A stretch of DNA of 44,952 bases, taken from assembly GCA_018065065.1 (NCBI GenBank), contig JAGHTZ010000017.1, forward strand, positions 1-44,952, read 5' to 3'. Source of the stretch: Candidatus Equadaptatus faecalis (GTDB taxonomy: Bacteria > Synergistota > Synergistia > Synergistales > Synergistaceae). The notes under the pieces are model-generated. The model worked only from the letters and a program-made list of their open reading frames with translations. It did not search any database and was not told the origin of the DNA. Made by a program: the position numbers and the translations under genes. Of the stretch, positions 7,117 through 40,853 are shown in pieces (within the stretch, counting starts at the first letter, position 1; every line of letters starts with the position of its first letter).

Positions 7117-9039
7117 TTGAACAAATTTAAAAATATCGGCGTTTACATAGTCGTAATCGTTCTTGCAGTAAGTCTTGTGAACATCTTTATAAATCCCGGC
7201 ACTGAAACGGAGAAAAAAACGGTGCTCGATTTCACCTACAGCCAGCTGTTGCAGAACGTTGCGGACGGAAAAGTCAAATCTGTTGAAATAGACCACAACG
7301 AGCATATAAAAGGCGTACTTGCCGACGGCAAAGAGTTCGCGACGGATATTCTCGATGCCGAAACGCTTCCGGCAAAGCTTGCCGAAAAGGGCGTTGAAGT
7401 CAAGGTTATCCCGCCCAAGGAAAGCACGTGGTACAGCACGCTGCTTATTTCTCTGCTTCCTACGCTGCTTCTTGTCGCCGTGTGGATTTTCTTCATGAAC
7501 CGCATGCAGGGCGGAGGCAGAATGATGGACTTTGCAAGAAGCAAAGCCAAAATGTTCCTTGACAACAGAAAGAAAGTCACGTTCGCGGACGTTGCGGGGT
7601 GTGATGAAGCCAAGGAAGAGCTTATGGAAATAGTTGAGTTCCTCAAAAAGCCGGATCGCTTTGCAAACCTCGGCGCGCGTGTTCCCAAGGGCGTGCTGCT
7701 GCTCGGCTCACCCGGCACCGGCAAAACGCTGCTTGCAAGAGCCTGCGCCGGAGAGGCGGAAGTGCCGTTCTTCAGCATAAGCGGTTCAGATTTTGTCGAG
7801 ATGTTTGTCGGCGTCGGCGCTGCCCGTGTCCGTGATATGTTTGACCAGGCGCACAAGATGCATCCGTGCATTATTTTCATAGACGAAATAGACGCGGTCG
7901 GACGCCAGAGAGGTACGGGACTCGGCGGAGGGCATGACGAAAGAGAACAGACGCTCAACCAGCTGCTGATTGAGATGGACGGTTTTGAGGACAATTCCGG
8001 AATAATAGTTATAGCCGCCACCAACAGGGCTGACGTTCTTGACCCTGCTCTGCTGCGCTCAGGACGCTTTGACAGACAGATAGTTGTTGACGTGCCCGAC
8101 GTTAAAGGCAGGGAGGCAATTCTCCGCGTTCATCTGCAAAACAAAAAGGTTGCCGACGGCGTGGATATAGCGACAATTGCCAAACGCACACCGGGCTTTG
8201 TCGGCGCGGATCTTGAAAACATTACGAATGAAGCTGCACTCCTTGCCGCGAGACACGGCAAGGAAAAGATAGAAATGCCGGAATTTGAAGAAGCAATAGA
8301 CAAGGTTATTGCCGGACCCGAACGCAAGAGCTTTGTACTTACGGAAAGGGACAAAAAAATTACCGCCTGCCACGAAGCGGGACACGCCGTTGTCGCGAGC
8401 AAGCTTGACGGAGCCACAAAAGTTCACAAGGTTTCCATTATCCCGCGAGGCAGAGCGCTCGGGCTCACCTGGCAGATACCTGACACAGACAAGGTGCACA
8501 TTGCGAAAAGCGACATGCTGAACGAAATAACTACGCTGCTTGGCGGACGCTGCGCGGAAGTGCTCAAATTCAAAGACGTAACCACGGGTGCGTCCAACGA
8601 CCTTGAAAGAGCCACGCAGGCGGCACGCGACATGGTTACGCGCTACGGCATGAGCGAAAAGCTTGGGCTGGTGGTGCTTGGCAGACAGCAGCATGAAGTA
8701 TTCCTCGGTCGTGATTTTGCGGACGAAAGCAAAAATTACAGCGGGGAAATCGCATACGAAATAGACAAGGAAGTACGCAGCATAATAGACGGCTGCTTTG
8801 CGAAAGCAAAGGAAATTCTTGAAGCCAACGAAGCCGTTCTCGACGATATGACCACGCGCCTGCTTGAAAAAGAGGTGCTTGAAGGAAATGAGCTTGCCGA
8901 GCTTCTCGGCTATCCGCCGGAGGAAGAACCGGAAAAGAAAGACGCGGAAACTGCGGAAACAGACGAAAACGCCGGAAAACAAGAGCAGACGCCGGAAGTC
9001 GCAGCAGAAAACAACGTTTCTGAAAATACTGAAGCGTAA
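7117..9039 (+). CDS. ftsH: ATP-dependent zinc metalloprotease FtsH
   Basis: Membrane-bound AAA+ protease that extracts and degrades membrane and short-lived proteins. About 640 residues: TM1 at about 6-26, a periplasmic domain of some 80 residues, TM2 at about 107-127, AAA domain with Walker A GSPGTGKT (197-204), Walker B IIFIDEID (252-259) and second region of homology ending RSGRFDR (314-320). The peptidase domain has the zinc motif HEAGH (419-423) and the third ligand Asp in [12 protein letters not shown] (about 495). Walker A usually starts GPPGTGKT; here the second residue is Ser. The TTG at 7117 has AGAGGT six bases before it; an upstream in-frame TTG at 7087 lies inside hpt. The acidic, Glu-rich tail is common in this family. 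It ends at a strong bidirectional terminator. Confidence 0.96.
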
Positions 9040-9053
9040 CTAAAAGTATACCG

Positions 9054-9100
9054 AAAAACTCCGCGATTTTAAAGTGTGACTTTAAAATCGCGGAGTTTTT
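9054..9100. terminator. Bidirectional terminator between ftsH and ddh
   Basis: A perfect 22-bp stem (9054-9075 with 9079-9100, loop GTG) starts with AAAAA and ends with TTTTT, so it works on both strands. It separates the convergent genes ftsH (+) and the diaminopimelate dehydrogenase (-). Confidence 0.95.
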
Positions 9101-9144
9101 ATAATCTGTTAAGCGTTTTGGAAGACAGAAATATATTTATTCAT

Positions 9145-10131
9145 TTACAGCAGATGCGCCCTGAGCCACTCTCCGTCTTTTGCGATGAGATACGCCGGCG
9201 GTATATCAAAAATCGTGCGGCAGCCTGTCTGTCCCTCCTGTGACATTCTGTGAGCCGCTCTTGCAAGGGCGACGAGAATGCTGCTTGTGAACTCCGGATT
9301 TGAGTCAAGCGTCAGCTTGTATTCGATTATCTGTTTAGTTTCTTCGTTCCAGCCGGTTTTGCCGCCGCGTATTACGAACCCGCCGTGCGGAAGTCCGCTG
9401 TGTTTGGCAAGCAGTTCTTCTTCGCTTATAAAGTGTACAGTAGTGTCATATTCGTCGAAGTAGTTCGGCATTGTTTTTATCTCGCGTTCGACGCGCTCGG
9501 CGTCCGCGCCTTCCTCAAGCACGACGTAGCATTCGCGCGTATGCTTCTGCCTTGTCGTAAGCTCCGGATTTTCGCCGTTTCTGACAGAATCAAGCGCCGC
9601 CTGCACGGGGCAGGTGTACTGCTTTGCATTCTTTACCCCGTCAATGCGCCTGATTGCGTCGGAATGTCCTTGGCTTACACCGCGTCCCCAGAAGGTGTAA
9701 TCCTTTCCGCTGACGAGAATTGCGTTGGCGTAAAGTCTCTGCAGAGAGAACATGCCCGGGTCCCAGCCGCCTGAAATAACGGCGAGATTGCCGCCTGCTT
9801 TTGCTGAGGCGTTGACGTTTGCAAAATGCTCCGGAATTTTTGCGTGGGTGTCGAAGCTGTCAACGACGTTGAAAAGCTTTGCTGCTTCCGGTGTCTGAAC
9901 GGGAAGATCGCGTGCCGAGCCTCCGCAGAGAATAAGCACGTCTATTCTGCCCTTGTATTTTTCAAGCGACGATACGTTTTCAACGGCCGCCGTGTCTGTC
10001 AGTATTTTTACATCGGAAGGATTTCTCCTTGTGAAAACCGCTTCAAGCTGCATGTCGGGGTTTTGTTTTACGGCGCATTCAACGCCGTGTCCGAGATTGC
10101 CGTAGCCGAGTATGCCTATCTTTGTCGTCAT
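9145..10131 (-). CDS. ddh: meso-Diaminopimelate D-dehydrogenase
   Basis: NADPH-dependent enzyme (EC 1.4.1.16) interconverting L-2-amino-6-oxopimelate plus ammonia and meso-diaminopimelate, a one-step route to the precursor of lysine and DAP-type peptidoglycan. About 328 residues, close to the 320 of Corynebacterium Ddh. The N-terminal Rossmann motif is GYGNLG (residues 9-14). Family signatures seen are DSFDTHAKIPEH, SGGWDPGMFSLQR and FWGRGVSQGHSDAIRRIDG, which hold substrate and cofactor contacts. ATG 10131 is preferred to the upstream TTG at 10149 because GGGAG lies 8-9 bases before it. It is a single gene convergent with ftsH and divergent from uvrB. Confidence 0.94.
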   Translation of the reverse strand: MTTKIGILGYGNLGHGVECAVKQNPDMQLEAVFTRRNPSDVKILTDTAAVENVSSLEKYKGRIDVLILCGGSARDLPVQTPEAAKLFNVVDSFDTHAKIPEHFANVNASAKAGGNLAVISGGWDPGMFSLQRLYANAILVSGKDYTFWGRGVSQGHSDAIRRIDGVKNAKQYTCPVQAALDSVRNGENPELTTRQKHTRECYVVLEEGADAERVEREIKTMPNYFDEYDTTVHFISEEELLAKHSGLPHGGFVIRGGKTGWNEETKQIIEYKLTLDSNPEFTSSILVALARAAHRMSQEGQTGCRTIFDIPPAYLIAKDGEWLRAHLL

Positions 10132-10212
10132 GTGTTTCACTCCCTGCAAGAGATAATTTTCATGCTGAAAGTATACACTAAAAAAGGCGGATTACCGTGT
10201 TAAAATTAAGTC

Positions 10213-12243
10213 ATGAATGAGAAATTTAAGCTTGTGTCTCCGTGGCCCATGTCCGGAGACCAGCCTGAGGCTGTTGAAAAGCTGCTGAAGGGCTTTACAG
10301 AGGAACACGCCGTTCAGACGCTGCTGGGGGTTACGGGCAGCGGAAAGACCTTTACCATGGCGAATATCATTCAGGGGCTTCAGCGCCCTACGCTTATCAT
10401 GGCGCACAACAAAACGCTTGCGGCGCAGCTTTACAGCGAATTTAAGGAGTTTTTCCCCGAAAATTCCGTAAATTATTTTGTAAGCTATTATGACTATTAT
10501 CAGCCGGAAGCGTACATGCCCGCACAGGACATATACATTGAAAAGGACGCTTCCGTCAACGAACGTATTGAAAAGCTGCGGCTCGCGACGACGAAGGCTC
10601 TGCTTGAACGGCGCGACGTTATAGTCGTTGCCTCCGTTTCCAGCATATACGGACTCGGCAAGCGGCAGAATTACGAGGACGCGATTATTTGGCTGAAAAC
10701 AGGTCAGAACTGGGAACGCAGGGCGTTTATGACGAGGCTTCTTGACGCCTATTACACGAGAAACGACCTGACACTTACTCCGGGCACCTTCCGCAGCAGA
10801 GGGGAGTTTATAGAGATATTCCCGTCTTACAGCGATACGGCGGTGCGAATAGGCTTCTTTGACGACGAGATAGACAGGCTTGAAGAGATAGACCCTGTAA
10901 GCGGACACTGCGTAAAGGTTACGGACCACATAGGAATTTATCCGTCAGAACAGTACGTTACAACGAGAGAAGCTATCGAACGCGCCTCAGAAGGCATAAA
11001 ACAGGAGCTTGAAGAATGTCTGCTGAAGCTGAACGGAGAGGGAAAACTGCTCGAAGCCGAACGGCTTAAAATGCGTACGACCTATGACCTTGAAATGCTG
11101 AACGAGGTAGGCTACTGTTCCGGAATTGAAAACTACTCTCGTTTCCTCGAAGGACGAGAGAAAGGGGAGCCGCCCGGAACGCTGCTTGACTTTTTCCCTC
11201 CGGACGCGCTTATATTTGTTGACGAGTCGCACATAACGCTGCCTCAGGTGCGCGGAATGTACAACGGAGACAGGGCGCGTAAGGACGTGCTTGTAGAGCA
11301 CGGTTTCAGGCTTCCGTCCTGTCTTGACAACCGTCCGCTGAAATGGGACGAGTTTGAGCCGAAGCTTCACAGAGATACGCTGTTTGTTTCAGCTACGCCC
11401 GGGGATTACGAATTTTCACATTCGCTCCACGTCGTTGAGCAGCTTATACGGCCGACGGGACTTCCCGACCCTGTTATAGAGGTTCAGCCTGCCACGGGGC
11501 AGGTGGACGCTCTTGTTGCCGAGCTGCGTCCGATTATAGAGCGCGGGGAGAGGGCGCTTGTGACGACGCTTACTAAACGCTCCGCCGAGGATTTGGCTGA
11601 ATATCTTGCCGAACTTGGAATAAAGGTGCGCTACATACATTCAGAGCTTGACACTTTTGAACGCGCCGAACTGCTCAGGGATCTGCGTCTTGGCGTGTTC
11701 AACGTGCTTGTAGGCGTGAACCTGCTGCGTGAAGGGCTTGACCTGCCTGAGGTTTCGCTCGTGGCGATACTTGACGCGGACAAAGAGGGTTTTCTGCGCG
11801 CGCACCGTTCGCTTATACAGATGGTAGGCAGGGCGGCGAGAAACGAAGCGGGACGGGTAATTCTTTTCGCGGACACGATTACGGACAGCATAGACGCAAC
11901 GATAAAGGAAACAGCAAGGCGAAGGGAAGCACAAATTGCATACAATGAAAAGCACGGTATAGTTCCGAAAAGCGTGCAGAAAGCGGTTAAAAATCTGCTG
12001 CCGGAAGAAATGCTTGACGAAGAGGGAACATATGCAGAACACCGCGCGGCAGAACCGGAAGAAAAGGAATACAATATCAAGGAACTTGAAAAAGCAATGT
12101 GGACGGCGGTTGAGAAACTTGATTTTGAAAGAGCCGCCGAACTGAGAGATCTTATACAGGAACTGAGAGGTGGAGAGAAGCTTGAAACAGTGCATAAGCA
12201 TAAAGGGCGCAAGGCAAAACAATTTAAAAAACATAGACGTTGA
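10213..12243 (+). CDS. uvrB: Excinuclease ABC subunit B
   Basis: UvrB is the helicase-like damage verification subunit of nucleotide excision repair, loaded by UvrA and then partnering UvrC. 676 residues. Walker A is GVTGSGKT (39-46). The beta-hairpin that inserts between DNA strands has YYDYYQPEAY (92-101). Walker B is DESH (337-340). Later helicase motifs (LVGVNLLREGLDLPE, QMVGRAARN) are present, and the C-terminal UVR domain for UvrC contact lies at about 617-650. I see no Shine-Dalgarno before ATG 10213 (the upstream bases are AT-rich), which suggests modest translation. It overlaps uvrA by 62 bases in a different frame. Full family length, no defects seen. Confidence 0.97.
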   Translation: MNEKFKLVSPWPMSGDQPEAVEKLLKGFTEEHAVQTLLGVTGSGKTFTMANIIQGLQRPTLIMAHNKTLAAQLYSEFKEFFPENSVNYFVSYYDYYQPEAYMPAQDIYIEKDASVNERIEKLRLATTKALLERRDVIVVASVSSIYGLGKRQNYEDAIIWLKTGQNWERRAFMTRLLDAYYTRNDLTLTPGTFRSRGEFIEIFPSYSDTAVRIGFFDDEIDRLEEIDPVSGHCVKVTDHIGIYPSEQYVTTREAIERASEGIKQELEECLLKLNGEGKLLEAERLKMRTTYDLEMLNEVGYCSGIENYSRFLEGREKGEPPGTLLDFFPPDALIFVDESHITLPQVRGMYNGDRARKDVLVEHGFRLPSCLDNRPLKWDEFEPKLHRDTLFVSATPGDYEFSHSLHVVEQLIRPTGLPDPVIEVQPATGQVDALVAELRPIIERGERALVTTLTKRSAEDLAEYLAELGIKVRYIHSELDTFERAELLRDLRLGVFNVLVGVNLLREGLDLPEVSLVAILDADKEGFLRAHRSLIQMVGRAARNEAGRVILFADTITDSIDATIKETARRREAQIAYNEKHGIVPKSVQKAVKNLLPEEMLDEEGTYAEHRAAEPEEKEYNIKELEKAMWTAVEKLDFERAAELRDLIQELRGGEKLETVHKHKGRKAKQFKKHRR

Positions 12244-15037
12244 AATACCGAAATATCAGCTGGTCGTAATAACGGGACCGTCGGGCAGCGGAAAATCCTC
12301 GCTTGCCTTTGACACGATATACGCCGAAGGGCAGAGCCGTTACGTAGAGTCGCTCTCCTCATACGCAAGACAATTCCTCGGAATGTCGGACAAACCGGAC
12401 GTTGACGAGATAACGGGGCTTTCTCCAGCAATTTCAATAGAACAGAAAGGAACAAACCACAACCCGCGTTCAACGGTCGGCACCGTCACCGAAATATACG
12501 ATTATCTCCGTCTGCTTTTCGGCAGGGCGGGAATTCCGCACTGTCCGAAATGCGGTAAAGAGGTGCACCGTTACAGCGTTGACGAAATAGTTGACAAAAT
12601 TTTCCGCGAATATGACGGTCTGCCGCTTGAAATTTATTCCCCTGTAATAAAAGGCAAAAAAGGCGAATTCAAAAATACTCTGCAAAAACTGCACAAACAG
12701 GGTTATCTCCGCGCTCGCATTGACGGTGACGTCGTGTGGCTGGAGGAAGAAGTGGAACTTGAAAAAAACAAACGTCACACGATAGAATGTGTTATAGACA
12801 GGCTTAAGGTGCGCGAAGACAACAGAATGCGCCTCACGGAAGCGGTTGAAATGGCGCTTAAGCTTTCGGACGGCTTTGTCCTGCTTGTGTCAAAAGACAA
12901 ACCGGAGCTTGAACTGACTGAACGCTACATCTGTCCGGACTGCGAAGTGAGCCTGCCTGAAATTGAACCGAGATTTTTCTCTTTTAACGCGCCATCCGGC
13001 GCGTGTCCCGAATGTTCGGGACTCGGTTTTCACGCGCATTTTTCGGAGGAACTCTCCGTTGACCCGTCGCTGAGTCTTGACGACGGGGCGTTCCTGCCGT
13101 GGAAAACCATGAAATATATGATTGAAAAGGCTCACGCCCTTGCTGATTTCAAAGGCTGGGACATATCAAAACCGTTTGGCGAACTGCCTGAGGAAGTGCG
13201 CCGTGCGCTCGTTTACGGCAGCGACGAAAAAATACCGATGATTTTTGAAACCAAACATGGCGACTGGGAATACAACGGACATTATCCCGGACTTATTCCG
13301 TGGCTTGAAAAACGCTACGGCGAAACCGAGTCCGAAAACTACCGTGAAGAACTGATGCGTTACCGAGTGGAAGACGAATGTTCATCGTGTCACGGGGCAA
13401 GGCTCCGTCCTGAAGCGCTCGCGGTTACGCTCGGCGGTTACAATATTGCGGAGCTTTCCAATCTTACGGTTGAAGAGCATATAAAGGTGCTTGACGGGCT
13501 GAAACTCGGAAAACAGGAACAGAAAATTGTCGGACAGGCGGTCAACGAAGTCCGCAAGCGTCTTGCTTTCCTTGTTGACGTCGGCGCAGGCTATCTCACG
13601 CTTTCCCGCCGTGCGGACACGCTTTCGGGCGGCGAAAGCCAGAGAATACGCCTCGCGACGCAGATAGGCTCACAGCTCACGGGAGTCCTCTACGTGCTGG
13701 ACGAGCCGACGATAGGGCTTCATCCGCGCGACACAAACAAACTGCTCGCGACGCTTAAGGTGATACGCGACCTCGGCAACAGCGTCGTAGTCGTTGAACA
13801 CGATAGGGACACGATGCTTGCCGCAGATTATCTTGTTGAATTAGGTCCCGAAGCAGGGGAAAACGGAGGGTATCTTGTTGCGGAAGGCAGCGCAGACGAA
13901 CTGCGCAAAGGCGATTCCTCCACTGCGAAATATCTGCGCGGGGAAGCAGACGGCGTGTACAGCTCCGTCAAAAAATACAGAAGACCGAACGGCTGGCTGA
14001 AACTTACCGGCTGCCGCGAAAACAATCTGAAAAATATCAAAGCGGAAATTCCGCTCGGCGTGTTCGGAGCAATCAGCGGCGTTTCAGGCTCAGGCAAAAG
14101 CACACTGCTTTACGAAATACTTTACAAAGGGCTGCGCGGAAAATTTGACAGCGAATACCGCGAACGTCCCGGAAAATTCGACGACATCAAAGGCTGGGAA
14201 AAGCTGCGCAACGTTGTTCTTGTTGACCAGAGCCCGATAGGGCGCACGCCGCGTTCAAATCCAGCGACCTATACGGGTGTATTTTCCGCCATACGCGAAT
14301 TTTTCTCCGAACTGCACGAAGCAAAACTGCGCGGCTACGCGCCCGGGCGGTTCAGCTTCAACGTAAAGGGCGGACGCTGCGAAGCGTGCAACGGAGACGG
14401 CGTCCTGAAGGTCTCCATGCTCTTTCTCCCCGACGTCTACGTAAAATGCGACGTCTGCAAAGGACAGCGCTACAACCGCGAAACGCTTGAAGTAAAATAC
14501 AAGGGACACTCCATAGCGGACGTTCTGAACCTGACGGTTGACGAAGCCTGCGAGCTTTTTGCTGGAATACCGAAAATACTCAACAAACTTAAGGTAATTC
14601 AGGAAGCGGGTCTTGGCTACATACGGCTCGGACAGTCGGCTACAACGCTCAGCGGAGGTGAAGCGCAGCGCGTAAAACTCGCCACGGAACTGAGCAAAAA
14701 ATTCCGCGGAAACACGCTCTATCTGCTTGACGAACCAACTACCGGACTGCACTATACGGACGTGCAAAAACTGCTCAAACTTCTGCACAGGCTCGTTGAC
14801 CAGGGAAATTCGGTGATTGTTATAGAGCACAACCTTGACGTGCTTGCCTCATCAGACTACATAATTGACCTCGGACCTGACGGAGGCAAAAACGGCGGCG
14901 AAATATCGGCAAAGGGAACGCCGGCACAGATTGCCGAATCCGGAACGGAAACGGGAAAATATCTTGGACAGTTCCTGAAAGAAACCGCACGCGGCAAAAC
15001 GGAGGAAAAAAATGAGAAAAACAGAAAACAGAAATAA
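12182..15037 (+). CDS. uvrA: Excinuclease ABC subunit A
   Basis: UvrA is the dimeric ABC-type ATPase that finds bulky DNA lesions and loads UvrB. About 951 residues with two ABC modules. Module 1 has Walker A GPSGSGKSS, signature LSGGESQRIRLATQIGS and Walker B VLYVLDEPTIGLHPRD. Module 2 has GVSGSGKSTL, LSGGEAQRVKLATELS and LYLLDEPTTGLHYTD. Zinc-binding cysteine pairs are seen at CPKCG, CPDC with CPEC, and CEAC with CDVC. TTG 12182 gives the usual start (MKQCISIKGARQNNLKNI) and has GGTGGAG six bases upstream; a GTG at 12170 is the alternative. The start lies inside the 3' end of uvrB, and the 3' end overlaps rlmB by 26 bases, indicating a tightly coupled operon. Confidence 0.96.
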   Translation: MKQCISIKGARQNNLKNIDVEIPKYQLVVITGPSGSGKSSLAFDTIYAEGQSRYVESLSSYARQFLGMSDKPDVDEITGLSPAISIEQKGTNHNPRSTVGTVTEIYDYLRLLFGRAGIPHCPKCGKEVHRYSVDEIVDKIFREYDGLPLEIYSPVIKGKKGEFKNTLQKLHKQGYLRARIDGDVVWLEEEVELEKNKRHTIECVIDRLKVREDNRMRLTEAVEMALKLSDGFVLLVSKDKPELELTERYICPDCEVSLPEIEPRFFSFNAPSGACPECSGLGFHAHFSEELSVDPSLSLDDGAFLPWKTMKYMIEKAHALADFKGWDISKPFGELPEEVRRALVYGSDEKIPMIFETKHGDWEYNGHYPGLIPWLEKRYGETESENYREELMRYRVEDECSSCHGARLRPEALAVTLGGYNIAELSNLTVEEHIKVLDGLKLGKQEQKIVGQAVNEVRKRLAFLVDVGAGYLTLSRRADTLSGGESQRIRLATQIGSQLTGVLYVLDEPTIGLHPRDTNKLLATLKVIRDLGNSVVVVEHDRDTMLAADYLVELGPEAGENGGYLVAEGSADELRKGDSSTAKYLRGEADGVYSSVKKYRRPNGWLKLTGCRENNLKNIKAEIPLGVFGAISGVSGSGKSTLLYEILYKGLRGKFDSEYRERPGKFDDIKGWEKLRNVVLVDQSPIGRTPRSNPATYTGVFSAIREFFSELHEAKLRGYAPGRFSFNVKGGRCEACNGDGVLKVSMLFLPDVYVKCDVCKGQRYNRETLEVKYKGHSIADVLNLTVDEACELFAGIPKILNKLKVIQEAGLGYIRLGQSATTLSGGEAQRVKLATELSKKFRGNTLYLLDEPTTGLHYTDVQKLLKLLHRLVDQGNSVIVIEHNLDVLASSDYIIDLGPDGGKNGGEISAKGTPAQIAESGTETGKYLGQFLKETARGKTEEKNEKNRKQK

Positions 15038-15806
15038 ACAACGGGAATATCCGACTGAAAAAAAAGAACCGGCGGAAGAACTCTGCTGGGGCAGAAATCC
15101 GGTAATATCCCTGCTTGAAAACAGCCCCGAACGCTGCTCAAAGGTGCTGCTTGCCAAAAACGTGCAGCCGCACGTAAAGGCAAAAATTGAAGAGCTATGC
15201 CGCGCGTCAAAAATAGTATTCAACAGCGTTGACTCTGCCTCGCTGGACAGGCTCTGCAACGGTGAAAATCATCAGGGAACCGCAGCGTACATGCTCCCCG
15301 TTACGCTCCTTGACGCGGAAGAATTTATACCTTCGCTTCCCAAGGCTCCGGCGCCGTGCCTCGTTCTGCTCTGCGACCATCTCCAAGATCCGCACAATCT
15401 GGGCGCAGTAATCCGAAGCGCCGAGGCGGCGGGGGCAAGCGGGGTAATAATTCCCAAACGCGGAAGTTGCATGCCCACGGGAACGGTTGTCAAAACCAGT
15501 GCCGGAGCGGCTTTGCGCCTGCCTGTTGCCCGTACCGGAAACGTTGCGCAGACGATAAAACTGTTTCAGGACGAAAATTTCTGGACTGTCGGACTTGCCA
15601 TGGAAGGCAGCGAAACGCTCTTCAAAGAAGACATGCCGCCGCGCCTTCTGCTCGTAATAGGTGCAGAGGGAGACGGACTCGGACACGCTGCGGAAAAAGC
15701 CTGCGATGAGCTGAGAAAAATACCCATGCAGGGAAGCACGGGCTCGCTCAACGCCTCAGTTGCAGCCTCGCTTGCGCTCTTTGAATGGACGAGAAGCAGA
15801 AAATAG
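15012..15806 (+). CDS. rlmB: SpoU-family RNA 2'-O-methyltransferase (RlmB-like)
   Basis: TrmH/SpoU (SPOUT) methyltransferase, probably methylating the ribose of a 23S rRNA guanosine as RlmB does. 264 residues with an N-terminal substrate-binding domain starting at WGRNPVISLLE and the three SPOUT motifs: motif 1 DHLQDPHNLGAVIRSAEA, motif 2 LLLVIGAEGDGLG and motif 3 IPMQGSTGSLNASVAASLA, which form the trefoil-knot SAM site. It overlaps the 3' end of uvrA by 26 bases; GGAGG (15002-15006) lies in that gene. The specific target is not certain: TrmH-like paralogues act on other rRNA or tRNA positions. Confidence 0.85.
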   Translation: MRKTENRNKQREYPTEKKEPAEELCWGRNPVISLLENSPERCSKVLLAKNVQPHVKAKIEELCRASKIVFNSVDSASLDRLCNGENHQGTAAYMLPVTLLDAEEFIPSLPKAPAPCLVLLCDHLQDPHNLGAVIRSAEAAGASGVIIPKRGSCMPTGTVVKTSAGAALRLPVARTGNVAQTIKLFQDENFWTVGLAMEGSETLFKEDMPPRLLLVIGAEGDGLGHAAEKACDELRKIPMQGSTGSLNASVAASLALFEWTRSRK

Positions 15807-15826
15807 TTCTTTACGAGATCGCGTAC

Positions 15827-15855
15827 TTGACTTGGTAATTCGCTAAGTATATAAT
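15827..15855 (+). promoter_or_regulatory. Strong promoter of the rimP-nusA-infB operon
   Basis: TTGACT (15827-15832), a 17-base spacer and perfect TATAAT (15850-15855). Transcription should start near 15862, so the leader before rimP is about 70 bases and must pass the hairpin at 15883-15908. Confidence 0.85.
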
Positions 15856-15882
15856 AACTAAGCTATTTCAGGAGCAGTTGCT

Positions 15883-15915
15883 GAAAGAGCGGGCAGTCCC
15901 GCTCTTTCTTTTGTT
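15883..15915 (+). terminator. Leader hairpin/attenuator before rimP
   Basis: GAAAGAGCGGG (15883-15893) pairs perfectly with CCCGCTCTTTC (15898-15908) around CAGT, followed by TTTTGTT. It lies downstream of the operon promoter and 8 bases before the rimP Shine-Dalgarno. It therefore looks like an early terminator inside the leader, not only the end of rlmB transcription. A weak alternative pairing (15866-15871 with 15881-15886) overlaps the first four bases of the stem. Confidence 0.75.
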
Positions 15916-15930
15916 AAAGGGGGGCTTGTT

Positions 15931-16431
15931 TTGGATAACGAAAAGCTTGAAGAAATTTACGCTGAGATGAAGAAGTGCATTGAAACCGAGGGGTACAACT
16001 GCGCAGGTTTCGAGCTTGTTTCCGAATGCGGCATGAATATTCTCCGCGCGTATATTGATATGCCGGGCGGCGTTGATTTGTCGGACTGCGAGACGGTCGC
16101 GAGGGTGGTTACTGATTATCTTGATACGGTTGAGAGTGCTTTGCCCGACCGTTACTATCTTGAGGTGAGTTCTCTCGGTCTTGAGCGTCCGCTTTTCTGT
16201 ATGGAGGATTACGCGGCGCAGTGCGGCAAGAAGATTGCAATAAATCTCAAGAGCGGCAAGAAACTTGAGGCGACGCTTTGCGAGGCAGCCGATGACGAAA
16301 TTGTTGTAATTGACAAATCTGGTGATAAAAGAACGATAGCTTTTGAAGATATCAGAAAAGCCAATCTGATTTACGAGGAAGAGAGCGGTCAGAAAAAGAG
16401 TTTCAAGAAAACGCCGCGCAAGAAAAAATAA
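15931..16431 (+). CDS. rimP: Ribosome maturation factor RimP
   Basis: RimP helps assemble the 30S subunit. 166 residues: an N-terminal alpha/beta domain with RAYIDMPGGVDLSDCETVARVVTDYL, the conserved EVSSLGLERPL block, and a C-terminal Sm-like barrel (KKIAINLKSGKKLEATL ... KANLIYE). The tail is Lys-rich. It starts with TTG at 15931, with AAAGGGGGG six bases upstream. It is the first gene of the rimP-nusA-ylxR-ylxQ-infB-rbfA operon, a conserved order in Gram-positive bacteria. Confidence 0.93.
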   Translation: MDNEKLEEIYAEMKKCIETEGYNCAGFELVSECGMNILRAYIDMPGGVDLSDCETVARVVTDYLDTVESALPDRYYLEVSSLGLERPLFCMEDYAAQCGKKIAINLKSGKKLEATLCEAADDEIVVIDKSGDKRTIAFEDIRKANLIYEEESGQKKSFKKTPRKKK

Positions 16432-16492
16432 CACAGGATACAGACAGTTTTATCCATATAAATTTCAATATTTTTAAGAGGGGGAACAGAAA

Positions 16493-17605
16493 ATGCTTTT
16501 GGTAAAAGATTTCGGAAAACTTCTTCATACCATTGCAGAGGAAAAAAATCTGTCGGAGGATGTTATTCGCGCAAGCCTGCAGGCGGCAATGAGCTCGGCT
16601 TACAAGAAATCCAGTCCGTACAACCAGAACAAAAACGTTGAGGCGTTTATTGACGCTGAAGGCGACCTCAAGATTGAGGAGATTCGTACCGTTGTTGAAG
16701 AGATAAAAAATCCCGACGCGGAACTGACGCTTGAAGAAGCAAGGGAAGAAGGCTATAACGACCTTGAGCTCGGCGACCAGATAAGAAAAGAAGTCAAGGT
16801 GTCTCCGGACAAGTTTGGCAGAATAGCCGCACAGACAGCGCGTCAGGTTATTATTCAGAGACTTAAGGACGCGGAGCGCCAGTATATTTACGAGCAGTTT
16901 GCGGACAAAATAGGCAACGTAATAGTCGGAAATATCTTTAAAGTTGAAGACGACCAGATTCTTATCAATCTTAATGAGAAAACGGAAGCGGTTCTTCCGA
17001 AGGATGAAAAGATTAACGGTGAAAGCTATCATGCAGGTCTGAAGATGAAATTCTTCGTGCTTGACGTCAGACAGACGACAAAAGGCCCGCGCATAGTTGT
17101 TTCAAGAACGCATCCGGGACTGCTCCGCAAGCTTATTGAGGTTGAAGTTCCCGAAATTCAGGACGGTACGGTTGAAATTCGCAGCATCGTCCGCGAAGCA
17201 GGTCTTCGCGCAAAGGTTGCGGTCAACAGCCTTGATCCGAACGTTGAGCCGCTCGGAGCCTGCGTCGGCAAACAGGGTATGCGCATAAAGGCTCTCAGCA
17301 CTGAACTTAACGGCGAAAGAATTGACGTTATAGCCTGGAGCGATGATCCGTATACGTTTATCAGAAGCGCACTGTCGCCGGCAAAAATAGTAAAAATTGA
17401 GCCGGTCGAGGGTGTGGAGCATGCCGTTACGGCTTACGTCCACAGCGAGGATCTTTCGCTTGCAATAGGCAAGGCAGGGCAGAACGTGCGTCTTGCGGCA
17501 AAAATTACAGGCTGGAAGATAGATATCAAGGTGCTTGAAGCAGAAAAGCTTCCTACGATGAAGGAACTTTTTGTTGATATAGCAAGCATTGTAAAAGAGG
17601 ACTAA
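16493..17605 (+). CDS. nusA: Transcription termination/antitermination factor NusA
   Basis: NusA binds RNA polymerase and modulates pausing, termination and antitermination. 370 residues: N-terminal polymerase-binding domain (1 to about 125), S1 domain (about 130-200), then two KH domains with GACVGKQGMRIKALSTEL and LAIGKAGQNVRLAAKIT. There are no C-terminal acidic repeats as in E. coli; this is the short Gram-positive-like form. GAGGGGG lies about 9 bases before ATG 16493. Because NusA often regulates its own operon through leader terminators, the hairpin before rimP may be relevant. Confidence 0.96.
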   Translation: MLLVKDFGKLLHTIAEEKNLSEDVIRASLQAAMSSAYKKSSPYNQNKNVEAFIDAEGDLKIEEIRTVVEEIKNPDAELTLEEAREEGYNDLELGDQIRKEVKVSPDKFGRIAAQTARQVIIQRLKDAERQYIYEQFADKIGNVIVGNIFKVEDDQILINLNEKTEAVLPKDEKINGESYHAGLKMKFFVLDVRQTTKGPRIVVSRTHPGLLRKLIEVEVPEIQDGTVEIRSIVREAGLRAKVAVNSLDPNVEPLGACVGKQGMRIKALSTELNGERIDVIAWSDDPYTFIRSALSPAKIVKIEPVEGVEHAVTAYVHSEDLSLAIGKAGQNVRLAAKITGWKIDIKVLEAEKLPTMKELFVDIASIVKED

Positions 17606-17615
17606 AAACAGGCTG

Positions 17616-17894
17616 ATGAAAAACGCAAATGCGGCAGAGAAAATAAAACAGGCAAGAAGCTGCATAGCCTGTGGCCGGACAGCCCGGAAAAACGAGCTGC
17701 TCAGGATTGTACGCACTCCCGAAGGAAGGGCAGTTTATGACCCGACGGGACGCGCAAACGGACGCGGGGCGTATTTGTGCCGCAAATGCGAGTGTATAGA
17801 ACGCGCTCAGAAGAAAGAACTTGTCGCAAAACATTTGAACGTTGTTCCCGATGCCGATTTTTTTGAGAAGCTTAAGCAGGTTTGCGGCGAATGA
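17616..17894 (+). CDS. ylxR: YlxR/RnpM-family RNA-binding protein
   Basis: A 92-residue protein of the DUF448 family. The B. subtilis member (RnpM) binds and modulates RNase P. The family pattern is clear: CIACGRTARKNELLRIVRTP, a short turn, then the GRGAYLC motif with a second cysteine pair (CRKCEC). The four cysteines could bind a metal. It follows nusA by 10 bases and overlaps ylxQ by 4 bases (ATGA), so it is translationally coupled. Confidence 0.9.
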   Translation: MKNANAAEKIKQARSCIACGRTARKNELLRIVRTPEGRAVYDPTGRANGRGAYLCRKCECIERAQKKELVAKHLNVVPDADFFEKLKQVCGE

Positions 17895-18223
17895 CCGAAA
17901 ACGAACGAAAAATCCTGAATCTGCTCGGCATAGCGAGAAGATCAGGGGCTATATTCATAGGTCAGGATCAGGTTCTCGAAAGCTGCAAAAAGTATAAAGC
18001 TCTGCTTGTGTTAACGTCGGACGACTGCTCTGAAAACGTACTCAAAAGCCTGAAAAACGCGGAGACGCGCATAAACGTTGAAAGAATGAAACTTAATCTT
18101 GACAGGACGCAGATGGGACAGGCAGTAGGAACAAAATCAGCTCAGATTGTATCAATGGATTACGAAAACGGTTTTGCGGGGAAAATTCTCAGTTTAATGA
18201 ACAGGAGTGATGCAGATGAGTAA
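17891..18223 (+). CDS. ylxQ: L7Ae-family ribosomal protein YlxQ-like
   Basis: A 110-residue member of the L7Ae/L30e family, which binds kink-turn RNA. NLLGIARRSGAIFIGQDQVLE is the typical start, followed by the ALLVLTSDDCSENVLK strand-helix unit and, later, GQAVGTKSAQIVSM. ATG 17891 overlaps the ylxR stop codon (ATGA) and gives the family's usual start; an in-frame TTG nine bases upstream lacks support. Its 3' end overlaps the infB start by 8 bases. Confidence 0.88.
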   Translation: MTENERKILNLLGIARRSGAIFIGQDQVLESCKKYKALLVLTSDDCSENVLKSLKNAETRINVERMKLNLDRTQMGQAVGTKSAQIVSMDYENGFAGKILSLMNRSDADE

Positions 18224-20312
18224 AATACGAATATACGATCTTGCCAAAGAGGTCGGTAAAACAAATAAAGAAGTAATGGAAATTCTTGCAGGGCTCGGCA
18301 TTGAAGTGAAATCTGCTTCAAGCTCGATAGAAGAGGCAGAAGCCGGCAAATTAAAGGCTTCCGTTTCGTCAGGCTCCGCTGAAAACAAAACCGCGGAAAA
18401 AAGCTCAAAGCCTGCCGCGGCGCAGCCTAAGCGTGGTTTGCCGCTTGTTAAAATCAAACCCGGGGCAAGCGTTGCGGACGTTGCTTCTTCCGTTGGCGAA
18501 AAATCGGGCAAGGCGGTCAAAATTCTTATGAATGCCGGTCTTATGATTTCAGCGGTTACCGCCGTTGACGACAATCTGCTCGGAGTTCTCGGCGAAGGCT
18601 TCGGCAGAAATTTTGTTTTTGCGGAGGAATACACGGAAACGGAAAATTTTGAAAGTTTTGAAGAAAAGCCCGTTGCCGCTGTCAGGAAGCCCGACAAAAA
18701 ACACGACAAAAAAGCTGAAAAGAAAGCTGAGAAAAAAGCGGAAAGACAGATTGCAAAGCAGTCTGCTGCCGCCAAGGAAGAAGAAACAGAGCAGCTTGAA
18801 CTCACGCCGAGGCCGCCGATTATTACGGTTATGGGACACGTTGACCACGGCAAAACGACGCTGCTTGACTATATACGCAATACTCACGTTACGAACAGGG
18901 AGGCAGGCGGAATTACGCAGCATATAGGCGCTTCCTGCGTAAATTACAACGGAAACACGCTTGTTTTCCTCGATACTCCGGGGCATGAGGCGTTCACTGC
19001 CATGAGGGCGCGCGGCGCTCAGGTTACGGATATCGCGATTCTCGTTGTCGCCGCCGACGACGGTCTTATGCCGCAGACAATAGAGGCTCTGAACCATGCA
19101 AAAGCGGCAAACGTACCGATTATAGTCGCGGTCAACAAAATGGACAAACCGCAGGCAAATCCTGACAGAGTACGCCAGCAGCTTTCCGATTATGGTCTCG
19201 TTCCCGAAGAATGGGGCGGCGATACGGTTATGGTAAATCTTTCAGCCAAAACCGGCGAACACGTGAACGAACTGCTTGAAATGATTATTCTTGTCGCCGA
19301 GCTTCAGGAACTCAAGGCGGCAAAGGAAGCCAAACCGCAGGGTACGGTTGTCGAAGCAAACCTCGACAAGGGCAAGGGACCGGTTGCAACGGTTATAGTT
19401 CAGAACGGAACGCTCAAACGCGGAGACATTATATACACGGATACTGCCTGGGGCAAAATCAGGGCAATGCTTGACGACAAGGGCAATATGGTCAGCAGCG
19501 CCGGACCGAGCATGCCTGTTGAAATTCTCGGACTTGAAAACGTCCCGCAGCCCGGAGAGATTTTCAAGACCTTCCCGTCAGAGCGCGAGGCCCGCGATTT
19601 TATGTCGCAGAAAGAGGTTGAACGCAGAGAGCAGATGTCTGTAAAAGCCAAGAGAGTCACCCTTGAAGAGCTTTATGACAAAATGCAGGGAGGAGAAACC
19701 CCGCAGCTGCACATAGTTCTTAAAACCGACGTTCAGGGCTCGCTTGAAGCTTTCCATGCTTCGCTTGTAAAAATGAGCACCGAAGCCGTCAGCGTGAATA
19801 TTGTTCACGAAGGCGTCGGACGCATTTCCGAATCGGACGTTATGCTTGCCGCCGCCTCGAATGCCGTTATTATAGGCTTCAACGTCAGACCTGACAGCAA
19901 CGCGAAGAAGATTGCCGAAACCGAAGGTATTCAGGTAAGACTTTATCAGGTAATTTACGATATGCTTGATGACGTTAAGGCAGCCATGGAAGGCATGCTT
20001 GCGCCCGAAATCAGGGAAAACACGCTCGGACAGGCTGAAATCCGCGATATTATCAGAGTTCCGAAGGTTGGAAACATTGCAGGCTGCCGTGTTCTTGAAG
20101 GTTCGGTGAAACGCGGAAGCGTGCGCCTTATCCGCGACGGAGTTGTTTTCTGGACGGGCGAACTTGCGAGCCTAAAACATTTTAAGGATGACGCAAGAGA
20201 AGTCAAGGCAGGAAACGAATGCGGTCTCAGCTTCGCCAAATTTCAGGATTTCAGAGTCGGCGACATCGTCGAATCCTTTGAAATTCTTAAAGAGAAGAGA
20301 ACGCTCGATTAA
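18216..20312 (+). CDS. infB: Translation initiation factor IF-2
   Basis: GTPase that brings fMet-tRNA to the 30S subunit and promotes subunit joining. About 698 residues. The N-terminal IF2_N helix unit is [20 protein letters not shown], then a Lys/Ala/Glu-rich linker and a second IF2_N-like unit. G domain: GHVDHGKTT (about 207-214), DTPGHEAFT and NKMD. The C-terminal domains (domain III and the fMet-tRNA-binding C2) follow, ending [21 protein letters not shown] 18216 is chosen because AGGAG (18203-18207) lies 8 bases upstream; in-frame GTG and ATG codons at 18207 and 18210 are too close to it. It is short compared with E. coli IF-2 (890), as in Gram-positives. Confidence 0.97.
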
Positions 20313-20327
20313 CCGTGGGAGTCTGCT

Positions 20328-20720
20328 ATGCGTTCATACCGTATGGGAAGAATAAACAAAGAATTCCAGCGCAGCATATCCGACCTGCTTCAGCTGCGCA
20401 TAAAGAAAGAACACGTCTCCGAGGCGATTATAACGGCGGTTGACGTATCTTCCGATTTGGGCTACGCAAAGGTCTATTACACTCTGCTTGACGAACACGT
20501 CAGGGGCACGGTGCAGAAAGCGCTGGAATCCGTTGCAGGACAGCTTCGCGGAATACTCGGCAGGGAAATGCACCTGCGCACTATTCCGCAGCTGACTTTT
20601 GTGTATGACAATTCAGAAGCCGAAGCGAGAAAAATGGACGAACTGCTTGACAGAGTAGCAAAGCTTGACGCTGAAATCATTAAATCGTCCGAAACGAAAT
20701 CTGAGGAAGATGAAGACTGA
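20328..20720 (+). CDS. rbfA: Ribosome-binding factor A
   Basis: RbfA binds immature 30S subunits and assists processing of the 16S rRNA 5' end. 130 residues, KH-type fold: RMGRINKEFQRSISDLLQ, the AKVYYTLLDE strand and LRTIPQLTFVYDNSEAEARKMDELL are family hallmarks. The tail is acidic. It follows infB by 15 bases and overlaps nrnA by 11 bases. Confidence 0.94.
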   Translation: MRSYRMGRINKEFQRSISDLLQLRIKKEHVSEAIITAVDVSSDLGYAKVYYTLLDEHVRGTVQKALESVAGQLRGILGREMHLRTIPQLTFVYDNSEAEARKMDELLDRVAKLDAEIIKSSETKSEEDED

Positions 20721-22591: not shown

Positions 22592-23520
22592 TTTACGCCA
22601 TCGGTGCGTTTGACGGTTTCCATACGGGACACTGCGAACTGCTGAAAACAGCACGGCGTACGGCAGAAGCAGAAAACTGCAGATGGGGTGTTCTGACCTT
22701 TGACCGTAATCCGCAGCAGTTTTTGTCCGGCGGTAATTTCAAGCAGCTGTTTACGGACGCGGAGCGTGATTTTTACGCCAAACTGCTTAATATACCTGAG
22801 CTTGTAAAAATTCCGTTCACAAAAGAACTTGCCGGACTTGCACCGGACGAATTTATGCGGCTTATGAAAGAGAAATACGAAGCCTGCGGAATTGTCGTCG
22901 GCGAAGATTTCCGTTTCGGAGCAGGACGCAGGGGGGACGCGTTGTTTATCAGGGATTACTGCGCGGAAAACAATATGGCGTTTTCGTCAGTAAAAACTCT
23001 GGAATTCAACGGAGGCACCGTCAGTTCCACACGGATAAGAAAGCTTGTATGCGAGGGAAAAATCAAAACTGCAAACGAACTGCTCGGGCTTCCTTATTAT
23101 TTGTCAGGAGAAGTTGTTACAGGTGAGCAGCGCGGCAGACTTATAGGTTTTCCGACTGCAAATCTGCTGCCGGAGAACGGCAAGGTTTATCCGAAAAACG
23201 GAAGCTATTTTACAATCACGCTTGTTGAAAACGAGTTGTACCCTTCGGTAACAAACATAGGCTTCAATCCCACGTTCGACGGAAAAAAACTGATATGCGA
23301 AACACACCTGCCAAACTTTGCAAAAGATATTTACGGAAAAAAAATTACCGTTTTCTTTGCGGAAGAAAACAGGGGAGAAATGAAGTTTGAAAGCAGCGAA
23401 AAGCTTGCAGAACAGCTGCGCACCGACACGCAGAAGTCGGCGGCTGTGCTGAAACGGTTTATGAAAGACAATGCCGCACTGCTTGACAATATTAAGGCGC
23501 AAGCTTTGACATGGCTGTAA
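22588..23520 (+). CDS. ribF: Bifunctional riboflavin kinase / FAD synthetase
   Basis: Converts riboflavin to FMN and then FAD. 310 residues. The N-terminal nucleotidyltransferase domain has GAFDGFHTGHCELL (family form GNFDGVHxGH) and STRIRKLVCEG. The C-terminal riboflavin kinase domain has GRLIGFPTANLLPENGKVYP, NIGFNPTF and DIYGKKI. It starts with ATG overlapping the truB stop, with GGTGGAG upstream. It is the last gene of the operon; the promoter of the next gene begins inside its final codons. There is no visible terminator behind it. Confidence 0.94.
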   Translation: MIYAIGAFDGFHTGHCELLKTARRTAEAENCRWGVLTFDRNPQQFLSGGNFKQLFTDAERDFYAKLLNIPELVKIPFTKELAGLAPDEFMRLMKEKYEACGIVVGEDFRFGAGRRGDALFIRDYCAENNMAFSSVKTLEFNGGTVSSTRIRKLVCEGKIKTANELLGLPYYLSGEVVTGEQRGRLIGFPTANLLPENGKVYPKNGSYFTITLVENELYPSVTNIGFNPTFDGKKLICETHLPNFAKDIYGKKITVFFAEENRGEMKFESSEKLAEQLRTDTQKSAAVLKRFMKDNAALLDNIKAQALTWL

Positions 23521-23534: not shown

Positions 23535-23575
23535 ATCCAAGTTGTGCATGAGGCAACAATTCCCTAAGGAGGATG

Positions 23576-37922: not shown

Positions 37923-37956
37923 AAAACAGGGCGGGCAAATGCCTGCCCTGTTTTTT
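37923..37956 (+). terminator. Intercistronic terminator between permease and glycerate kinase
   Basis: AAAACAGGGCGGGC (37923-37936) pairs with GCCTGCCCTGTTTT (37941-37954, one G-U pair) around AAAT, followed by TT. The kinase Shine-Dalgarno follows within 10 bases, so this looks like a partial terminator that lowers kinase mRNA relative to permease mRNA. Confidence 0.85.
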
Positions 37957-39108: not shown

Positions 39109-39134
39109 CAGGACTGATACAGAAATATTACCCG

Positions 39135-39162
39135 CAAACGGGCGCAAGCCCGTTTGTTTTTT
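39135..39162 (+). terminator. Terminator of glycerate kinase
   Basis: CAAACGGGC (39135-39143) pairs with GCCCGTTTG (39148-39156) around GCAA, followed by TTTTTT. Confidence 0.92.
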
Positions 39163-39225
39163 ATATGCAGACTGTAGTACTGTGTCAATAATTTTTAAGC
39201 AAAACGAAAATATTGAAATTTCAGT

Positions 39226-39254
39226 TTGACAAACAGTTTGAAAGAGAGTAGTAT
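39226..39254 (+). promoter_or_regulatory. Promoter of the intergenic small-RNA candidate
   Basis: Perfect TTGACA (39226-39231), 17-base spacer, TAGTAT (39249-39254). No gene follows on this strand before the convergent gltX; the transcript would end at the hairpin at 39297-39331. Confidence 0.7.
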
Positions 39255-39260
39255 CTGCAT

Positions 39261-39331
39261 TGTGTTTGTACTATGTGCATGACACATCTCCGATAGGGCA
39301 GCCGAACCAACCGCCTCGGCTGTCTTTTTTT
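39261..39331 (+). ncRNA. Candidate small RNA, about 70 nt
   Basis: The stretch lies between a consensus promoter and an intrinsic terminator and encodes no protein of note. It contains a 5-bp hairpin ATGTG/CACAT (39273-39287) and a 9-bp terminator stem with a C-rich 10-base loop (ACCAACCGCC), which could pair with G-rich ribosome-binding sites. It does not match tmRNA, SRP RNA, 6S or a riboswitch class I know. It stands alone between glxK and the convergent gltX. Exact ends are estimates. Confidence 0.55.
39297..39331 (+). terminator. Terminator of the small-RNA candidate
   Basis: GGCAGCCGA (39297-39305) pairs with TCGGCTGTC (39316-39324, one G-U pair), loop of 10, followed by seven T. Confidence 0.85.
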
Positions 39332-39466
39332 GTGTGTCAGTAGTATTCTGTGAGGATTTTGGGCAGGGAAAAATCGTTAGGATTTTATAATGACCTATAA
39401 TATTTTTAACGTTGTGAATTCTGCCAAAAATAAATATTATTGAAATTATAAGACATAAGATTGGAT
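39332..39466. other. AT-rich intergenic DNA with an inverted repeat
   Basis: No gene seen. ATTTTGGGCAG (39356-39366) and CTGCCAAAAAT (39421-39431) form an 11-base inverted repeat with one mismatch. Between them are two TATAAT hexamers (39386-39391, 39396-39401) without good -35 partners. I cannot assign a role. Confidence 0.4.
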
Positions 39467-39502
39467 AAAAAAATATACCCCGTGTTTGGGGTATATTTTT
39501 TT
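39467..39502. terminator. Bidirectional terminator behind gltX
   Basis: A perfect 15-bp stem (39467-39481 with 39488-39502, loop GTGTTT) with A7 on one side and T7 on the other. It ends gltX on the minus strand and would stop any plus-strand read-through. Confidence 0.92.
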
Positions 39503-39509
39503 ATTAAAA

Positions 39510-40853
39510 TTAGTCAACGAGGTTGTAATGTTTGAGGCGCGTTTCGGTTTCAGCTTTGCCGAGCTGCTCCGCACATTCAAATACGCCCGGGCTGACTTTT
39601 CTTCCGGTAAGCACCCAGCGGAGAGGCAGGCAGAGCTCTCTCATGCTGCTGCCGTTCGTTTCAATCCAGTCTTTTGTGAATTGTTCAAGCACTGGTGCTT
39701 TCCATTCGGAAGCATTGTCAAGCAGCTGACGGTAGAAGCCTTTAAGGACGGGACGGCGATCTTCGCTGATTTCCGAAGCGTCGTAACGTTCCTTTACAAC
39801 GTCAAAGCTGAGGAAGTAATCGCTGTATTCCGCAACCTGAAGCGTTGTCTGTCCGCGTCCGCCCATTGTTTTGAGCGAGGACGCAAGGTATTCGTCGCTG
39901 TAGTTCTGCGGATTCAAGCCGAGCTTTTCCCAGAAGGGGCGGATGATTTCAAGCAGTTTGTACGGATCCATGCGTTTCATCTGTTCCTGATTTATGTGGT
40001 TCAGCTTGTCCATGTCAAAGACTGCCGCCTTTGTCGTTACCTGTTTGAGCTCAAACTGCGCAACTGCTTCGTCTCTTGAGAATACTTCGCCCGTTTCCCT
40101 CGGTGTCCAGCCGAGCAGCGCGAGGAAATTGAATACGCCGTCAGGCAGATAGCCGAGGTCGTTGTATTCGAATACGCTGGTTGCGCCCTGACGTTTAGAG
40201 AGTTTCTTTTTGTCTTTGCCGAGTATCATCGGAAGGTGTCCGAAGGTTGGGACGTTCCAGCCGAGCGCCTGATAGACGAGTATCTGTTTCGGCGTGTTGA
40301 TTACGTGGTCTTCGCCGCGGATTACGGTGTTTATGTCCATATAGTGGTCGTCTATTACGCAGGCGTAGTTGTAGGTGGGCATTCCGTCGCGTTTCATGAG
40401 GACAATGTCTTTTATTGTTCCGTCCTGATTGACCGAGCAGCGTTCGCTGCGGACTTCAATATGTCCGTAGACTGCATCGTCAAAGGTAAGCAGTCTGCCT
40501 TCCGGCACGCGGAAGAAAACAGCGTCGTCTTTAACGTACGCCATGTCTTTGTCAATGAGCTCCTGCGCGTGTTTTCTGTAAAGCTCCATGCGTTCCGACT
40601 GGCGGTAAGGTCCATAGCTTCCGCCGACGTCGGGACCTTCGTCCCAGTCGAAGCCCATCCAGCGCATACCGTCCATTATGCTCTGTTCATATTCCTTTGT
40701 TGAACGTTCGAGGTCTGTGTCCTCTATGCGGAGTATGAATTTTCCCCCGTTGTGGCGCGCCCAAAGCCAGTTAAAAAGCGCCGTGTGGGCTCCGCCGATG
40801 TGCAGTGCGCCTGTCGGACTCGGCGCAAATCTTACTCTTACGTTGCTGTCCAT
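39510..40853 (-). CDS. gltX: Glutamyl-tRNA synthetase
   Basis: Charges tRNA-Glu with glutamate. 447 residues, class I. The HIGH region is RFAPSPTGALHIGGAHTALF and the KMSKS equivalent is KKLSKRQG. The segment YNYACVIDDHYMDINTVIRG is typical of bacterial GluRS. It is somewhat shorter than the usual 460-500 residues, at the C-terminal anticodon-binding part. GGAG lies before ATG 40853. It is monocistronic and divergent from polA. Confidence 0.95.
   Translation of the reverse strand: MDSNVRVRFAPSPTGALHIGGAHTALFNWLWARHNGGKFILRIEDTDLERSTKEYEQSIMDGMRWMGFDWDEGPDVGGSYGPYRQSERMELYRKHAQELIDKDMAYVKDDAVFFRVPEGRLLTFDDAVYGHIEVRSERCSVNQDGTIKDIVLMKRDGMPTYNYACVIDDHYMDINTVIRGEDHVINTPKQILVYQALGWNVPTFGHLPMILGKDKKKLSKRQGATSVFEYNDLGYLPDGVFNFLALLGWTPRETGEVFSRDEAVAQFELKQVTTKAAVFDMDKLNHINQEQMKRMDPYKLLEIIRPFWEKLGLNPQNYSDEYLASSLKTMGGRGQTTLQVAEYSDYFLSFDVVKERYDASEISEDRRPVLKGFYRQLLDNASEWKAPVLEQFTKDWIETNGSSMRELCLPLRWVLTGRKVSPGVFECAEQLGKAETETRLKHYNLVD

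Follow-up and report, generated by a model that had tools for sequence, protein, structure and literature searches.

The window analysed here, a stretch of 44,952 nucleotides from the uncultured Synergistaceae bacterium Candidatus Equadaptatus faecalis, contains a candidate small RNA gene between glxK and gltX (Table 1). The upstream neighbour glxK, which encodes a glycerate kinase (PF02595), is itself preceded by a GntP permease gene and is separated from the candidate unit by its own terminator. The downstream neighbour gltX (39510-40853) converges on the unit, and no gene lies downstream of the unit on the + strand; the gene map agrees with the earlier note on both points. Because the neighbours have their own terminators and gltX converges, the unit does not look like a leader or a 3' end of an adjacent gene.

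The promoter consists of TTGACA (39226-39231), a 17-nt spacer and TAGTAT (39249-39254) and matches the consensus at 10 of 12 positions. The organism appears to use such a TTGACA-type consensus, since intergenic TTGACA promoters elsewhere in the window are found before tRNAs (24651 on the + strand, 623 on the - strand) or a protein gene (promoter at 23506, gene at 23573). A housekeeping sigma factor would transcribe the unit from about 39259-39262; this start and the end of the RNA are positions that we infer.

The RNA (about 39260-39332) is predicted to fold with -26 kcal/mol (z = -3.8 against shuffles) into a 5' hairpin, an unpaired linker and a terminator hairpin. The terminator stem of 11 bp (39295-39305 with 39316-39326) encloses the C-rich loop ACCAACCGCC (39306-39315) and leads into a T7 tail (39325-39331). 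The terminator is absent from the list of our terminator scanner because the scanner allows loops of at most 8 nt; in the fold it is clearly visible. The product released by termination would be ~70 nt long and would carry a 5' hairpin, the linker motif UCUCC and a C-rich terminator loop. The earlier note had read the promoter hexamers, their spacing and the T7 terminator at these same positions, and its short hairpin and C-rich loop on a transcript of this length match the predicted fold.

Table 1. Features of the candidate unit and its immediate context.
Feature	Position	Strand	Basis or remark
Sigma-70 type promoter	39226..39254	+	Hexamers and spacing same in sister species
Predicted small RNA, ~70-73 nt	about 39259..39331	+	Fold, covariance model
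5' hairpin	39261..39286	+	Predicted fold; sister comparison
Unpaired linker UCUCCGAU	39287..39294	+	Possible anti-Shine-Dalgarno segment (putative role)
Intrinsic terminator	39295..39331	+	Sequence and predicted fold
glxK terminator	39134..39162	+	Terminator scan; also in sister; context, outside unit
Apparent bidirectional terminator, gltX end	39468..39508		Sequence; kept in sister; context

Retention of the unit in a sister species

We compared two species, this genome (G000) and that of one other species of the genus (G001). The sister has one copy of the unit in the same place, between glxK and gltX. All 12 hexamer positions, the 17-nt spacing, both hairpins and the T tail are common to the two copies. 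Predicted separately, the sister RNA folds alike (z = -3.9). The 5' hairpin has 9 pairs in common, with one U-G/C-G change that keeps the pair, and the sister's loop has 6 extra nt. Two changes in the terminator stem (G-U/A-U and A-U/G-U) also preserve pairing, and the linker reads UUCUCCUUU in the sister. Substitutions affect 3 of 40 paired columns versus 7 of 32 unpaired columns (Fisher p = 0.10). The lower number of changes in stems is only suggestive, and all 3 stem changes are transitions on one side; two-sided changes do not occur between the two species.

In the sister, the glxK terminator and the sRNA promoter lie ~500 bp further apart (39172-39208; L002 about 991-1500). This additional sequence contains a frame of 133 aa that has a hydrophobic stretch at the N terminus and matches nothing in Pfam.

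The two-species comparison reveals no coding constraint in any of the six frames on both strands. A rival explanation is a short peptide encoded on either strand, for example in the minus-strand frame from 39287, where an ATG with a preceding GGAG is present in both species. The substitution pattern leads us to reject this explanation as hardly credible: replacements outnumber silent changes in every frame, in one minus-strand frame none of 12 changed codons is silent, and the lengths of the peptide frame differ (30 vs 66 aa). The unit thus has its own promoter and intrinsic terminator, is intergenic and is non-coding, as a stand-alone sRNA gene should be.

How strong is the conservation of the unit? 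Promoter and terminator are 92% identical between the two species and the transcript is 86% identical. Fourfold-degenerate sites of the window genes are 75% identical (glxK 70%, gltX 82%), a loose average that varies strongly along the window and is based on a crude handling of frames across gaps. The remainder of the intergenic region towards gltX has the same identity as the transcript, 86%, and other intergenic regions of the species pair range from 74 to 100%. On these alignments the conservation of the unit looks not very strong, with a transcript identity (0.86) no higher than that of other intergenic DNA.

This last comparison fits a rival explanation, namely that the promoter-like and terminator-like sequences arose by chance and were retained merely because the two species are close. 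We consider it improbable. The combination of a perfect TTGACA promoter and a strong terminator at most 200 nt downstream is unique in the 45-kb window. When the 401-bp intergenic region was shuffled 1000 times with dinucleotide composition preserved, no such unit arose. Furthermore, all 12 hexamer positions, the spacing, the stems and the T tail are kept while fourfold sites are ~75% identical.

Fourfold-site identity itself differs between blocks of the window: it is 0.87-0.95 at about 15000-20700 vs 0.5-0.57 at 8500-15000. Recombination may possibly account for this contrast, or possibly frame slips at gaps.

Distribution and RNA families

The candidate RNA is so far known only from this bacterium and one sister species, as judged by sequence and structure searches. 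A covariance model (R1) matches 2 of 183 Synergistales genomes, both from this genus and once per species. The remaining 181 genomes have no match, and among 53 genomes of the family only the two genus members match; these searches used Infernal's stricter filters, which weak relatives could escape. A terminator pattern search in the 53 family genomes gives matches outside the genus at control level. At eleven additional gltX loci, taken from other Synergistaceae-like MAGs, inspection of the 3' flank by eye showed different neighbours and no such unit. No exact terminator match occurs in the viral contigs searched. As the unit is absent from all other genera searched and the gltX flanks differ, it is either young, fast-evolving or lost elsewhere.

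The earlier note recognised no known RNA class in the unit, and our Rfam search bears this out. With Rfam 15 at gathering scores the window contains five tRNAs only. A relaxed search yields sub-threshold matches, none of them on the + strand over the unit.

A possible role in trans

We consider it quite likely, from the sequence elements and their retention, that the unit produces a real sRNA. That it is an independent stand-alone small RNA gene acting in trans is likely and the best explanation we have. The earlier note's reading of a stand-alone non-coding unit gains support from the syntenic copy in the sister, its matching fold and the lack of a constrained frame. Its second idea, pairing of the loop with ribosome-binding sites, is still a guess and no target has been singled out.

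The following mechanism can be proposed. UCUCC and/or ACCAACCGCC would pair in trans with G-rich ribosome-binding sites and block translation. Both species keep two C-rich segments unpaired: the linker has UCUCC, the terminator loop A(C)(C/A)AACCGCC. As an anti-Shine-Dalgarno candidate, the linker ranks level with the loop. Judged by these segments, we hold the pairing mechanism only tentatively.

A target prediction for the C-rich loop, proposed in the earlier note, gave no convincing target. The loop complement GGCGGTTKG has 27 sites in this genome and 29 in the sister, counts that include the unit's own antisense strand, compared with 23 and 17 for controls. The excess over controls is thus slight in both genomes. 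Among 30 sites inspected as loci there is one orthologous pair, and no gene start is recognisable at its position. When duplex energies are calculated over the genes of the window, no target leads in both species.

Alternatively, the unit may be transcribed without any role in trans. The act of transcription itself could matter, for example by interfering with read-through transcription from gltX, or the transcript could be noise. The empty target search, the confinement to one genus and the orientation of the unit, which faces the 3' end of the converging gltX, all fit this scenario. However, the gltX terminator sits before the unit, which argues against read-through interference, and the 5' hairpin is kept although a unit without a role in trans could dispense with it. 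We therefore rate transcription without a trans role as quite unlikely.

If the RNA does act in trans, then pairing would proceed without Hfq. Hfq (PF17209) has no match in this genome, which is listed as 100% complete, but has matches in 5 of 14 controls; CsrA (PF02599) has no match either (3 of 14 controls match). Since neither protein is detected in the genome, the candidate belongs neither to the Hfq-dependent trans-acting sRNAs nor to the CsrA-titrating RNAs of the CsrB type. Two proteins of the KhpA/KhpB family are present and perhaps assist pairing, but that they serve this RNA is speculation. The combined proposal, a genus-specific regulatory RNA independent of Hfq and CsrA that has two C-rich pairing segments and may use a KhpA/KhpB chaperone, is unlikely to hold in full.

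RNAs of other bacteria provide a precedent for the proposed pairing. RepG, an intergenic sRNA of Helicobacter pylori, uses its C/U-rich terminator loop to pair with a G-repeat in an mRNA leader (PMC8295292). Like RepG, the candidate has a C-rich terminator loop, and its host genome lacks detectable Hfq. Unlike RepG, it belongs to a different phylum, has no sequence or family match and no G-repeat target was found for it, so the parallel is only an analogy of how the RNA may work. In Staphylococcus aureus, unpaired UCCC motifs of Rsa-type sRNAs have been proposed to pair with Shine-Dalgarno sequences (PMC3861533). The candidate shares an unpaired C-rich motif with them, but its motif is UCUCC in a linker instead of UCCC in a hairpin, and there is no Rfam match.

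The candidate is credible yet ordinary: the kind of sRNA gene is already known, and this is still another lineage-specific candidate. Nevertheless, it is well delimited, and neither Hfq nor CsrA is detected in its genome; such a candidate would offer a handle on RNA regulation in the phylum. It would be useful in this respect because very few sRNAs are annotated there: a survey of annotated sRNAs lists only one from Synergistetes (PMC9029176).

Other features near the unit

The gene for the GntP permease is followed, ahead of glxK, by a strong terminator-like hairpin with T6 (37925-37955, + strand) that overlaps the ATG at 37939. The true start of glxK is probably 37975, behind AAAGGGGTG, rather than 37939.

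On the minus strand, a divergent promoter-like site at 39160-39188 (TTGACA, 17 nt, TATAAA; 11/12) would drive antisense transcription into the glxK 3' end. In the sister this region is replaced, and no TTGAC(A/T) occurs there on the minus strand.

The segment at 39333-39430, which separates the sRNA terminator from that of gltX, equals the sRNA in conservation and includes the imperfect palindrome CGTTAGGATTTTATAATGACCTATAATATTTTTAACG.
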